A stretch of 64,000 nucleotides of DNA from Erythrobacter sp. EC-HK427 (GTDB lineage Bacteria; Pseudomonadota; Alphaproteobacteria; Sphingomonadales; Sphingomonadaceae), in contig NZ_LR701479.1 in NCBI RefSeq assembly GCF_902498745.1, positions 1,182,292-1,246,291 of the forward strand. Direction: 5' to 3'. Every line of letters starts with the position of its first letter. The stretch's first letter is position 1. The notes under the pieces are model-generated. The model did no database searches. It had not been told where the DNA came from and saw only the letters and a program-made list of their open reading frames with translations. Shown here one piece after another: positions 3,672 through 8,556 of the stretch. The position numbers and the translations under genes are program-made.

Positions 3672-4648
3672 GTGTTTTGTCCACCCGAGCGCGGTTCCGC
3701 GTTTGGATCGCGCCATGGGCCGATCTCGTCGGGCTTCAGGCGGTTGAGCGCGTCGAGCCGCCGCCGCTGGCGCACTTCCAGCGCCAGCCGGAGGAAAGGG
3801 TGGCGGCCTCTCTGCAAATCGGTGGGCACCATGCCAAAGAAGGCCTTCACTTCCTTCACCCGGTGCGACTGGTCAAAATAGCGTAGCTCTATCTCGGGCC
3901 GGTCTTCGGGGCGCGCCACGTCGAGCAGGGCAGCGCCCATATCCAGCACCCGCGCGCGGCGCAGCGCCTGCTTGGGCGTCAGGCCGAAGGTTTGCTTGAT
4001 GAGCCGCTCGATCGTCCGCTTCGAAACGTCGCGTCCTTCGGCAAAGGCCTCGACACTGATTTCCGGATTGGCGAGGCATTGCTGCTCGAATTCGAGTGAG
4101 AGGGCATCGGGCGCTTTCCGGCCAGCCGCTTCGACGAGCGGGCGCAGGAACCCGTCCTCCAGCGCGGCGAGCCATTTTTCGTGGCTGGCAGACAGGTCGA
4201 CCAGCGAACCCAGCGGCACATCGCGCCCGAAATGCTCGTCCAGATCGACGATGCGATTGACCATTTCGGCATTGCTGGGAAAGCCGAGCAGCGGCGCTGC
4301 GCCGGGGTTGAAGTGGACGGTGATCGCCACATACTTGCCCGAAATGCCCAGCGGCATCATTTTGGACTGGGGGCCGAAATAGAGCGCGCGGCCATGCGGG
4401 CCGGGGTGCCACACCTGCTCGCCATCGGCGGTGCCGGCGGTCCATGCGTCGTGATAGATGATGGTAATGCAAGGGTGGTCTACCACGCGGCCACAGTCTA
4501 TGCGCATTCCCGCTGGCAATTGCCCTTCGGCAATGCTCCACCAGTAACACCAGGGCAGCAGATCGCTTGCAGGCGCGCGGGACAAGGCTAGCGGAGACCC
4601 GCTTTTGGTCGCGCCCGTCTGCGATGTTATTTGCGGCCCCACATTCAT
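3668..4648 (-). CDS. AraC-family transcriptional regulator
   Basis: 326 residues from the ATG at 4648 (MNVGPQ); a TTG ten codons further upstream would also be open. The C-terminal part carries two helix-turn-helix units of the AraC type ([22 protein letters not shown] and [23 protein letters not shown]). The N-terminal two thirds resemble the DUF6597-like sensing domain found with such regulators ([11 protein letters not shown]...[13 protein letters not shown]). It is divergent from the hisN-like gene, 65 bp apart. An 8-bp perfect inverted repeat covers its start codon. Ligand and regulon are unknown. Confidence 0.85.
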
Positions 4649-4663
4649 TACCGCGATGAATGT
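4641..4663. promoter_or_regulatory. Inverted repeat over the AraC-type start codon
   Basis: ACATTCAT and ATGAATGT form a perfect 8-bp inverted repeat with a 7-bp spacer. It overlaps the ATG of the AraC-family gene and lies in the 65-bp divergent spacer towards hisN. It could be an autoregulatory operator. AraC proteins often prefer direct repeats, so this is only a candidate. Confidence 0.35.
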
Positions 4664-4713
4664 GTAAAATTGCGACAAATTGCAACGGAATTAGGGATAA
4701 ACAGGTAAGAACC

Positions 4714-5487: not shown

Positions 5488-5637
5488 ACCCCGCCAATGG
5501 ATGTACTTACCTGTGGTGCGAAAGCCACAAACAAGGGCAAATTATCGCGCGTTCTCAAACTGTAATGTGCGGTAAATTTTTGCGGCATTAAGCGCAGGCC
5601 ATCGCAGCACGGGCTGCGTTTGCTAAAGGGAAGCACA

Positions 5638-6240
5638 ATGAAAATCATCACCGTCGCGGCTGTTCTGGCAGCTGTTGTTTCGACCCCGGCACTGGCCCAG
5701 GAAGGCCCCGTCCAGGGCAAGGATGGCATCCGTATCGAAGGCCAGGTGGCGTGGGAACGTCTGAACGATCCCGAGCTCGATCAGGGCATCAATTACGAAC
5801 TGGGCAGCGGCATTTCCTATGGCGGCGAAATCGGCTTCGATTTCCCCGTGAGCAACCGCGTCGTGGTTGGCCCCTATGCCAACTACTCGGCCTCCACGAT
5901 TGAGGAATGCGAAGGCCAGCTGTGCGTTTCGTCGGGCGGCTACTGGGCAGCGGGCATCCACGCCGGTCTGCTCGTCGGCACCAACGGCATGGTCTATGCC
6001 AAGGCCGGTTACGGCCAGCAGACCATTGATCTGGTCGGCCCGTTCAATGACAATGGCACGATCATCAATTTCGACGAGAGCGAAACCGGCGGCGGCTACA
6101 ATTTCGGCCTCGGCTACGATCACAGCTTCGGCGAAAACTTTTATGGCCGGATCGAGACCTCGATCAGCGAAAGCTACGACATTTACGGCTTCGATTTCCA
6201 GCGCTCGACCGTGGGCGTGAGCCTAGGTGCGCGCTTCTAA
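5638..6240 (+). CDS. Outer-membrane beta-barrel protein (OmpA/Opa-like)
   Basis: 200 residues from ATG 5638. A typical signal peptide (MKIITVAAVLAAVVSTPALAQ, cleaved after ALA) is followed by alternating amphipathic strands such as VVVGPYANYS, YAKAGYGQQ and YNFGLGYDH and a C-terminal Phe (LGARF), as in small eight-stranded barrels. A single Cys pair (EECEGQLC) may form a loop disulfide. The gene stands alone with a strong intrinsic terminator behind it. Function beyond a surface or porin-like barrel cannot be told. Confidence 0.75.
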   Translation: MKIITVAAVLAAVVSTPALAQEGPVQGKDGIRIEGQVAWERLNDPELDQGINYELGSGISYGGEIGFDFPVSNRVVVGPYANYSASTIEECEGQLCVSSGGYWAAGIHAGLLVGTNGMVYAKAGYGQQTIDLVGPFNDNGTIINFDESETGGGYNFGLGYDHSFGENFYGRIETSISESYDIYGFDFQRSTVGVSLGARF

Positions 6241-6265
6241 GCCAAGCGTAAACGCATCATCGCGG

Positions 6266-6303
6266 AAAGGGGCGGCGAACTTCGGTTTGCCGCCCCTTTT
6301 TGC
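6266..6303 (+). terminator. Rho-independent terminator after the barrel protein gene
   Basis: GGGGCGGC and GCCGCCCC form a strong stem with a short loop including TTCG, followed by a run of five T. It lies 29 bp behind the stop of the outer-membrane protein gene. Confidence 0.85.
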
Positions 6304-6383
6304 GTGCGGCCCGCAGCAAATCCGTTCCATCCGTGCGCCGCTATGCAATATACGTTTGGTATCGAATCGCTGGGGGGCGGCGT

Positions 6384-7115
6384 ATGTATGCCAGTGTATT
6401 GTCAGGGGAAGTGCCATCGCAGGCCGCCCAATTGCAGGATCTGACCGCCGGAATGGCATGCGGTGCGGACAGGCTGGGCGCGCTTGCCGGGGCGCTGCAA
6501 ACGGTGATTGTCGGACAGCAAGAGCAGGCTGCGGTCGCCCGCCTGCGTTACCGTGCCTATCTGGCCGCAGGCGCGGTGCCGGAGGATCGCTCGGGCGCGA
6601 TCTGGGAAGCGGGCGATAGCGACGCCAATGCGCGGACATATGCCGTGCTGCTGGAGGGCGAGCCCATCGCCTCGATCCGCGTCCATATTGCGCGGGGAAC
6701 GCAGACCACCTCGCCAGCCTGCACGGTGTTCCCCGAGGTGACATCGCCGTGGCTGGCAAGCGGCTGCGCTATCGTGGATTCGAGCTGCTTCTGCGTGGAA
6801 CCGCAACTCGCGCGAGACTTTCCGCAGCTTGCCCTGCTGGCCGTGCGCATTCCGGTGGTGCTGGCGCAGGCTTTTGCCCCGTCATGGCTGATCGCCACAC
6901 CGCGCCGTGGCCATGAAGGATTTTACCTGCGCAATTTCGGCGGGCGCAGGCTGGCAGAGCCCCGCGTATATCCCGGCCGGGAACGGCCGCTCGCGCTGGT
7001 GGGCAACCGCATGGAACTGGTCGCCGAGCGCATTTTCGGTCGCTATCCCACCTTCCGCGCCGATGCCGCCGAGCAAGCGGCGATGCGCGGCCATTACCGG
7101 GAGGCCTTGCAATGA
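6384..7115 (+). CDS. FeeM-like N-acyl amino acid synthase (GNAT-fold acyltransferase)
   Basis: 243 residues from ATG 6384, preceded by a purine-rich GGGGGGCGG. It has features of the FeeM/LuxI/OlsB acyltransferase group: RLRYRAYL at residues 53-60, EGEPIASIRVHIA around 91-103, then a DSSCFCVEP block, a long helix with LLAVRIPVVLAQAFAP, and IATPRRGHEGFYLRNFGG. Such enzymes join a fatty acyl chain from acyl-ACP to an amino acid or amine. The next gene starts inside its stop codon (ATGA), so the two are translationally coupled. The acceptor substrate cannot be read from sequence. It is not a LuxI homoserine lactone synthase by motif. Confidence 0.7.
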   Translation: MYASVLSGEVPSQAAQLQDLTAGMACGADRLGALAGALQTVIVGQQEQAAVARLRYRAYLAAGAVPEDRSGAIWEAGDSDANARTYAVLLEGEPIASIRVHIARGTQTTSPACTVFPEVTSPWLASGCAIVDSSCFCVEPQLARDFPQLALLAVRIPVVLAQAFAPSWLIATPRRGHEGFYLRNFGGRRLAEPRVYPGRERPLALVGNRMELVAERIFGRYPTFRADAAEQAAMRGHYREALQ

Positions 7116-7846
7116 CCGCCGGACAGCCCGTTGCGCCGCCGCGCACGCTCGCCATTGCAGGCGGCTTGGTGCCGCGGATCGAAGCGGTGATCGGGCGCAA
7201 CTCGTTACACGGCGATCCGGCCTTCTACGATCCGGCCAGCTTTGCGTGGACGCATAAGCTCGAAGCCGCCTTTCCCGCCATCCGCGCCGAACTCGACGCG
7301 CTGCTGGGTTCCGGCGCGGCGATTCCCGGCTTCGAGGAAATCAGCCACGACCAGACCAAGCTGACCGACGACAAACGCTGGCAGACCTATTTCTTCCTCG
7401 GCTACGGCCTGCCTTTCGAAGAGAATATCGCCGCCTGCCCGCAAACCTGGGCGGCGCTCCAGAATGTGCCGGGGTTGGTCACCGCGTTCTTCTCCATTCT
7501 TGCGCCGGGCAAGCAGATCCCGCTCCATCGCGGGCCCTATAAAGGTGTGCTGCGCTATCATTTGGGGGTGGTCGTGCCGGAGGGCGAGACAATCGACATC
7601 ACGGTTGATGGCGAGACTCGCGGCTGGGCGGAAGGAAAGAGCCTGATTTTTGACGACACCTATTACCATTCGGCGCGCAACCTCACAGACAGGCCGCGCG
7701 TGGTTCTGTTCGTCGATTTCGAACGCCCGCTCAAACGCCCGCTTTCTTGGGTGAACAAGGGCGTGCTGAAAATCATCGCCCGCTCCGGCTTTGTGCAGGA
7801 GGCGAAGGTGAATTACGATAACTGGCGGCGCAGCAATGCTAGCTGA
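7112..7846 (+). CDS. Aspartyl/asparaginyl beta-hydroxylase family dioxygenase
   Basis: 244 residues. Fe(II)/2-oxoglutarate oxygenase of the Asp_Arg_Hydrox family: PLHRGPYKGVLRYHLGV (His139, Arg148) and FDDTYYHSARN (His186) give the two iron His ligands and the oxoglutarate Arg. Relatives include LpxO and OlsC, which hydroxylate lipid acyl chains, as well as peptide hydroxylases. Being coupled by ATGA to a FeeM-like acyltransferase suggests that it hydroxylates the acyl amino acid product, but that is inference. No signal peptide or membrane segment is clear apart from a hydrophobic stretch near residue 200. Confidence 0.78.
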   Translation: MTAGQPVAPPRTLAIAGGLVPRIEAVIGRNSLHGDPAFYDPASFAWTHKLEAAFPAIRAELDALLGSGAAIPGFEEISHDQTKLTDDKRWQTYFFLGYGLPFEENIAACPQTWAALQNVPGLVTAFFSILAPGKQIPLHRGPYKGVLRYHLGVVVPEGETIDITVDGETRGWAEGKSLIFDDTYYHSARNLTDRPRVVLFVDFERPLKRPLSWVNKGVLKIIARSGFVQEAKVNYDNWRRSNAS

Positions 7847-7970
7847 GATGCTTGCATTCGCTGGCCGATCCGCTATGTGCGCCCCCTTCACTGACACGTG
7901 ATTCTTCTTCCGGTCTGGCTGAAAGGGCTGCCAGGGCTGGTTGGACGTGTTCTCGAACTAGGAGACGAAA

Positions 7971-8174
7971 ATGCCCAAGCTGAAGACCAAGAGCGGTGTC
8001 AAAAAGCGCTTCAAGCTCACTGCCACCGGCAAGGTCAAGCATGGTGTCGCCGGAAAGCGCCACCGCCTGATCAGCCACAATGCCAAGTATATCCGCCAGC
8101 AGCGCGGCACCAAGGTTCTGGCCAAGGCCGACTTTGCAGCCGTCAAAAAGTGGGCACCCTACGGCCTTAGCTGA
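7971..8174 (+). CDS. rpmI: 50S ribosomal protein L35
   Basis: 67 residues, very basic ([23 protein letters not shown]), with the L35 signature including [11 protein letters not shown]. The family is normally 64-67 residues. A good GGAGA ribosome binding site precedes the ATG. It forms an operon with rplT 22 bp downstream. The usual infC gene is not immediately upstream here. Confidence 0.97.
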
Positions 8175-8196
8175 GCCGGGGATAAGGAGATAAGAT

Positions 8197-8556
8197 ATGC
8201 CTCGCATTAAACGTGGTGTGACCACCCGCGCTAAACACAAGCGCGTTCTCGAACAGGCCAAGGGTTACCGCGGCCGTCGCAAAAATACGATCCGCGTCGC
8301 CCGTCAGGCCGTCGAAAAGGCCGGCCAGTACGCCTATCGCGACCGCAAGGTGAACAAGCGCAATTTCCGCGCTCTGTGGATCCAGCGTATCAACGCTGCG
8401 GTGCGCGCCGAAGGCCTCACCTATTCGCAGTTCATGCACGGCGTGAAGCTGGCCGGGATCGAGCTGGACCGCAAGGTCATGGCCGATCTGGCGATGAACG
8501 AAGGCGCAGCCTTTAGCGGCATCATCAAGCAGGCCAAGGAAGCGCTTCCGGCCTGA
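8197..8556 (+). CDS. rplT: 50S ribosomal protein L20
   Basis: 119 residues, the normal length for L20, with the conserved start [18 protein letters not shown] and the internal [14 protein letters not shown]. Binds 23S rRNA and is needed for early assembly of the 50S subunit. It follows rpmI in an operon, with AAGGAG upstream of the start, and is followed by an intrinsic terminator before pheS. Confidence 0.98.

Follow-up and report, generated by a model that had tools for sequence, protein, structure and literature searches.

A rare gene pair of a FeeM-like N-acyltransferase and an OlsC-like hydroxylase that may make an undescribed small lipid

What might be produced by a FeeM-like N-acyltransferase and an OlsC-like oxygenase whose genes overlap by four bases? 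This question is raised by a locus in the 64,000 nucleotides of Erythrobacter sp. EC-HK427 that we analysed (the window; Table 1), for which a preliminary description had suggested a two-enzyme route to a hydroxylated N-acyl amino acid or amine. Re-reading of the sequence confirmed the coordinates, both frames and the ATGA overlap given there, and the motifs RLRYRAYL, IASIRV, PRRGHEGFYLRNFGG, PLHRGPYKGVLRYHLGV and YYHSARN were each found in the translations, with the histidines of the hydroxylase correctly numbered. The overlap probably reflects translational coupling of both genes. A scan for promoters and terminators was uninformative, as it gave no promoter-like sequence with 1.0 expected and one terminator-like sequence with 3.5 expected. 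Searching the whole genome returned a single FeeM match at E≤1 as well as one PF05118 match above the cut-off and one stretch at E 0.06 below it.

Table 1: Features of the gene pair, and loci of unpaired FeeM genes with sensor-type neighbours.
Feature	Position or loci	Strand	Details
FeeM-family N-acyltransferase (GNAT/LuxI-like fold)	6384..7115	+	ATG 6384 to TGA 7115, 243 aa
OlsC-like Fe(II)/2-oxoglutarate hydroxylase (Asp/Asn beta-hydroxylase family)	7112..7846	+	ATG 7112 to TGA 7846, 244 aa
ATGA start/stop overlap of both genes	7112..7115	+	read from the sequence; 4-base overlap kept in two other genomes
His139, predicted metal ligand	7526..7528	+	invariant in alignments A4 and A8; aligned to the AspH His of the HTGP stretch
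His186, predicted second metal ligand	7667..7669	+	invariant in alignments A4 and A8; aligned to the AspH His of FDDSFEH
Arg196, predicted 2-oxoglutarate-binding residue	7697..7699	+	invariant in alignments A4 and A8; aligned to an AspH Arg
Unpaired FeeMs with sensor-type neighbours	L043, L045, L047, L048, L062, L044, L064, L065, L243, L244
Longer loci of unpaired sensor-neighboured FeeMs	L165-L170, L182, L183

The first protein matches the Pfam family FeeM (PF21926) with 95.3 bits (gathering cut-off 27) over positions 1-154 of the 158 of the profile and the second matches Asp_Arg_Hydrox (PF05118) with 159.4 bits (cut-off 22.6) over positions 2-157 of 157, and as both matches (E 4.2e-27 and 8.3e-47) are well past the curated cut-offs they cannot be put down to chance. 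The top structural match of the predicted fold of the first protein is FeeM itself (structure 2g0b), which supports a FeeM/LuxI-type acyltransferase fold for the model and agrees with the family assigned in the preliminary description, whose pathway idea would have failed with an unrelated GNAT group. Despite the common Pfam family and predicted fold, identity to FeeM is 13-18% over the structural alignments, and the protein differs from FeeM in having a hydroxylase partner beside it. A PDB profile search with 13 FeeM rows matched 2g0b (E 9e-4), and the three paired FeeMs described below, when used as the only queries, gave no PDB sequence match at E≤1. LuxI-type acyl-homoserine lactone synthases have a related fold but are not the best match: in the structural lists EsaI, LasI, BjaI, RpaI and TofI rank behind FeeM and also behind many ordinary GNAT acetyltransferases, and the Pfam autoinducer synthase model (LuxI) was unmatched in a hmmscan at E≤10, which gave FeeM only and in which the HMMER filters drop most weak matches. 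Because ordinary GNAT acetyltransferases dominate the lists below FeeM, the fold alone is no proof of a long-chain acyl donor.

For the second protein the nearest named family is OlsC, ahead of LpxO, in line with the oxygenase family proposed earlier. The window hydroxylase reaches 241.9 bits with the NCBIfam model for OlsC (NF052565), the other two paired hydroxylases 243.4 and 262.3 bits, and since this compares with an equivalog cut-off of 450 we call the enzyme OlsC-like rather than OlsC. With the model for LpxO (NF033391), the lipid A 2-hydroxylase of the same superfamily, it reaches 119.3 bits at a cut-off of 500. Two plasmid proteins that group with the paired hydroxylases at 100/100 do pass the OlsC cut-off (530 and 536 bits); the window hydroxylase is 43% identical to them, and both metal histidines are present. 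H139, H186 and R196 are identical in all nine rows of alignment A8, window included. In AspH the metal is bound by two histidines and 2-oxoglutarate by an arginine, and we assume the same roles for these residues, which would give the window hydroxylase an Fe/2-oxoglutarate site of two histidines and a conserved arginine, as judged from the alignments. A sequence search for relatives in the PDB gave 11 rows at E≤0.01, every one of them an Asp/Asn beta-hydroxylase. The structure prediction of the hydroxylase itself was poor (pLDDT 55.1) and was kept out of the fold search. A further relative (44-45% identical), encoded at 3989-4693 of a Mycobacterium riyadhense plasmid region (L242), directly follows a very long adenylation-domain gene, which suggests acyl or lipopeptide tailoring there.

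We found the pair in three genomes, those of the window, of Aurantiacibacter sp. D1-12 (G478) and of a Sphingomonadaceae MAG (G049). In both others the FeeM gene is followed by the hydroxylase gene with a 4-base overlap, GTGA in D1-12 and ATGA in the MAG, so that all three genomes with the paired FeeM type have the hydroxylase adjacent, and the two genes are neighbours in relatives, on which the pathway idea had been made to depend. The identity to the window protein is 59% in D1-12 and 31-33% in the MAG for FeeM, and 77% and 61%, respectively, for the hydroxylase. Much faster divergence of the FeeM gene would suit a changed acyl donor or acceptor. A crude estimate of dN/dS for the window against D1-12 gives 0.15 for FeeM and 0.18 for the hydroxylase, with 0.08 for the neighbouring inositol monophosphatase gene and 0.13 for pheS, all of these being rough values because synonymous sites are near saturation. 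The pair is a real, conserved and rare two-gene unit of two known enzyme families.

The expectation that both genes stay coupled across Sphingomonadales was borne out in part, as the pair is intact wherever the paired FeeM type was found but is rare and sporadic and no general feature of the order. Conservation throughout the genus was rejected, with the paired FeeM type being present in two of 40 genomes. PF05118 matched 19 of these 40 genomes at 23 places, two of which are the pairs; from the remaining 21 places 14 lie in fetched regions and seven weak ones (39-73 bits) were seen as short loci only. The 14 fetched unpaired hydroxylases score 169-198 bits with the paired-hydroxylase HMM, one of them 102, compared to 475-504 for the pairs, and no match to the paired FeeM profile was found in their genomes except in D1-12, where it lies elsewhere in the genome. 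In a sample of 396 genomes of the order seven match a two-row FeeM profile, namely the two Aurantiacibacter and five with distant FeeMs, all of which belong to one other family (f5); the MAG is evidently outside this sample, as it was also missing from a Pfam search of an order sample of the same size. A general linkage of FeeM and hydroxylase was rejected as well: among 199 genomes of the family 13 have a FeeM, and when their coordinates were set against all PF05118 places counted in these 13, adjacency was seen only in the window genome (G000) and the MAG. Neither within 1.5 kb of the other returned FeeM loci, to which this check applies (two weak FeeM places lie outside it), nor in 19 longer stretches (L165-L183) did the paired-hydroxylase HMM find anything. 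Scanning genome contigs with two peptide patterns, which are narrow enough for more diverged pairs to escape, gave 27 matches and two confirmed loci, both being the pairs already found. From the plasmid records 98 match the hydroxylase and 11 match FeeM, and the pair is absent from the six regions opened (four of the 98 and two of the 11, with 4 kb on each side). In the open-licence literature, judged on titles and the openings of abstracts, we found no description of a FeeM-hydroxylase pair. FeeM and the OlsC-like hydroxylase belong to known families, and their combination is without description in the literature searched.

In the window genome and in D1-12 the pair sits between the inositol monophosphatase gene and rpmI. 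Upstream are an outer-membrane beta-barrel gene and the inositol monophosphatase gene, and downstream follow genes that we take to be rpmI, rplT and pheS. In the MAG the locus is a different one, with what is presumably a suf-like gene cluster beside the pair and an Rrf2 regulator also nearby, so the pair is seen at two loci across three genomes. The same region was fetched from 17 further genomes of the genus; their slot between the inositol monophosphatase gene and rpmI is empty or holds other genes, and neither gene of the pair was found in it. Across the window (5488-7970) and loci L148-L164 it is variable, being empty or filled with a beta-barrel gene, a TonB receptor, other genes or FeeM and the hydroxylase. 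An unpaired FeeM gene in another genome (L183 in G853, about 7450-8240) lies between pheS and rplT, near the ribosomal-protein locus of the window pair, which may be chance. An AraC-type gene is found within 2 kb of all three pairs but was not counted as part of the system, because the similarity of the window protein to that of the MAG is largely confined to the DNA-binding part (32% over 102 aa) and because genomes lacking the pair have AraC genes at this locus too. Further upstream in the window, beyond PRPP synthetase, a histidine kinase (6-1844) and a LuxR-type response regulator (1910-2581) are encoded on the minus strand; neither was seen upstream of PRPP synthetase in D1-12.

To look into the origin of both partners we reconstructed their trees. 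For the hydroxylase the loci were the chosen short-frame and top-scoring PF05118 places of the family sample (40 regions) together with 14 of the genus, and 49 of 61 given loci were kept (score of at least 120, or a plasmid row). The three paired hydroxylases form one clade (100/99), which falls into a larger group together with four plasmid proteins, including the two that pass the OlsC cut-off. This group is set apart at 100/100 from the 42 remaining hydroxylases, taken from the family and genus samples, beside none of which a FeeM was found. D1-12 has a second, unpaired hydroxylase, which falls with those of the genus. As the paired hydroxylases group with true OlsC and apart from the 42 sphingomonad hydroxylases, the partner is not simply a local paralog. 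In the tree of 26 FeeMs, which left out weak matches (below some 50 bits), L021 because it is truncated, L042 because it is a near-copy, and nine of the 11 plasmid records, the paired FeeMs form one clade (94/88; 92% of bootstrap trees). Unpaired FeeMs from Sulfitobacter, Rhizobium tumorigenes and one more alphaproteobacterium join them in a wider group (99/97), and a 100/100 split divides this group from 13 FeeMs of the same bacterial family. From both trees, therefore, both genes look imported, and the cassette has probably spread horizontally. The trees would allow a single pairing event, which three pairs cannot prove.

How might the two enzymes work together? We see an even chance that the pair is a two-gene cassette for a small amide lipid, in which N-acylation by the FeeM-like enzyme is followed by hydroxylation of the product by the OlsC-like one. 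Judging from family and fold, the first enzyme would take a fatty acyl group off acyl carrier protein and join it to an amino acid or amine at the amino group. The clade of the hydroxylase and the tight coupling of both genes suggest that the Fe/2-oxoglutarate enzyme would then hydroxylate this FeeM product, and its action on that product is the simplest reading because of the gene overlap, the co-occurrence and the shared location; the MAG has kept the pair though its FeeM has diverged far more than its hydroxylase. By analogy to OlsC and LpxO, C2 of the acyl chain would be the most likely position and is our first guess, leading to a 2-hydroxyacyl amino acid or amine, with the head group as the main alternative. 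It counts against this reading that the substrate chain of OlsC is ester-linked and a FeeM product would have only an amide-linked chain, and also that, of the four plasmid relatives of the hydroxylase that were opened, two lie among genes without an evident lipid role. Of the two-enzyme route in the preliminary description, both families and the tight coupling have held up, whereas the second protein stays below the OlsC cut-off and the pair is rare.

The logic resembles that of the OlsB/OlsA/OlsC route to hydroxylated ornithine lipids, where a GNAT-like N-acyltransferase also precedes a hydroxylase, but the window cassette has a FeeM-type instead of an OlsB-type acyltransferase and contains no O-acyltransferase. 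A search for OlsB (PF13444) stayed below the cut-off in the window genome (E 0.16) and gave no match in D1-12, which would make classical ornithine lipid unlikely in both Aurantiacibacter. In the MAG PF13444 matches with 107 bits, and an OlsB-like gene (L184:13702-14379, contig 6; 247 bits with OlsB equivalog cut-offs of 320 and 350) is located at a distance of about 12.6 kb from the pair; given this gene, ornithine lipid is a possible substrate there. In the passages of PMC3972451 on ornithine lipid, OlsC hydroxylates the ester-linked fatty acid and OlsD the amide-linked one. This regiochemistry would be fitted by a FeeM product that is a lyso-aminolipid, to which a separate O-acyltransferase adds the second chain that is then hydroxylated exactly as by OlsC, and the two-step aminolipid logic in parts of PMC11631085 fits as well. 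We nevertheless consider such a two-chain lipid unlikely, as no O-acyltransferase gene was seen by eye beside the pair at the loci of the window, D1-12 and the MAG. The FeeM products in the literature are, to our knowledge, single-chain, which also speaks against it.

The hydroxylase could instead modify the amine head group, for example by beta-hydroxylation of an amino acid, whether this precedes or follows N-acylation. The family member AspH modifies Asp and Asn side chains, making this possible, and the solved relatives mentioned above are solely Asp/Asn beta-hydroxylases, yet the enzyme groups with OlsC lipid acyl hydroxylases in the tree and scores 242 bits with their model, so that we rate modification of the head group as quite improbable. 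Even more doubtful is that both genes are merely co-expressed and that the target of the hydroxylase is an unrelated membrane lipid, for instance a sphingolipid. In sphingomonads 2-hydroxymyristate is frequent. Passages of PMC12210278, which are silent on Aurantiacibacter, name C14:0 2-OH as one of the predominant fatty acids of the order, and plasmid relatives of the hydroxylase adjoin phospholipid genes (Pseudomonas sp. JS425) or an NRPS (M. riyadhense). As PF05118 is absent at E≤1e-5 from 21 of the 40 genus genomes (19 of 33 good-quality ones), the hydroxylase is unlikely to make the 2-hydroxymyristate of the order, and it is unlikely to be required for a 2-hydroxy acid shared across the genus. 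The second, unpaired hydroxylase of D1-12 also argues against an unrelated lipid, as does the occurrence of the paired clade only next to FeeM within the sample.

Compatible with the two-gene cassette for a small amide lipid is a version in which its product, a hydroxylated N-acyl compound, is a signal. It comes from the neighbours of FeeM genes, which differ between both sides of the FeeM tree. On the PEP-CTERM side a PEPxxWA-CTERM protein adjoins nine of the 11 loci examined (from 13 rows, with L018 and L020 left out), and a link between NAS and PEP-CTERM has been published, as seen in the reference list of PMC11631085; no PEP-CTERM gene was recognised beside the window FeeM. A sensor-type gene adjoins two of these 11 loci, with the sensor-like neighbour in L171 judged by eye, and L178 has, besides its PEP-CTERM gene, a kinase-like gene two genes off. 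In contrast, all ten unpaired FeeMs on the paired side are accompanied by a sensor-type gene, in seven cases histidine kinases or sensor parts and in three GGDEF-EAL genes, one of which lies about 1 kb off rather than adjoining. This hints that the FeeM clade on the paired side makes signals. Against it stands that one family accounts, with five genomes, for six of the ten, which are not independent (in two of them a contig end truncates the sensor gene), that the GAF matches in L044 are below the Pfam cut-offs in a gene cut by a contig end, and that only two of the 11 plasmid FeeM records were opened for this set. In addition, none of the three pairs has an adjacent sensor, the hydroxylase standing there instead, and the kinase and response regulator of the window are 3.8 kb off and were not seen there in D1-12. 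We therefore give the signalling version a low probability, and likewise think it improbable that the pair represents a mobile route of two enzymes to a new class of 2-hydroxyacyl amino acids or amines serving as an extracellular or membrane signal. If this were true, an acyl-chain hydroxylase coupled by gene overlap to a sensor-associated FeeM clade would change the message.

In summary, the gene pair may make an undescribed small lipid. Known FeeM-type acyl amides include bacterial antibiotics, surfactants and possible signals, and hardly any tailoring enzymes are known for them. The link of the FeeM clade to sensor proteins is a testable hint on what its products serve for. If the pair does make and hydroxylate an acyl amide, it could readily serve as a two-gene test system in E. 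coli, and OlsC/LpxO-type chemistry would then also cover single-chain acyl amides, with a possible new lipid class as the result.
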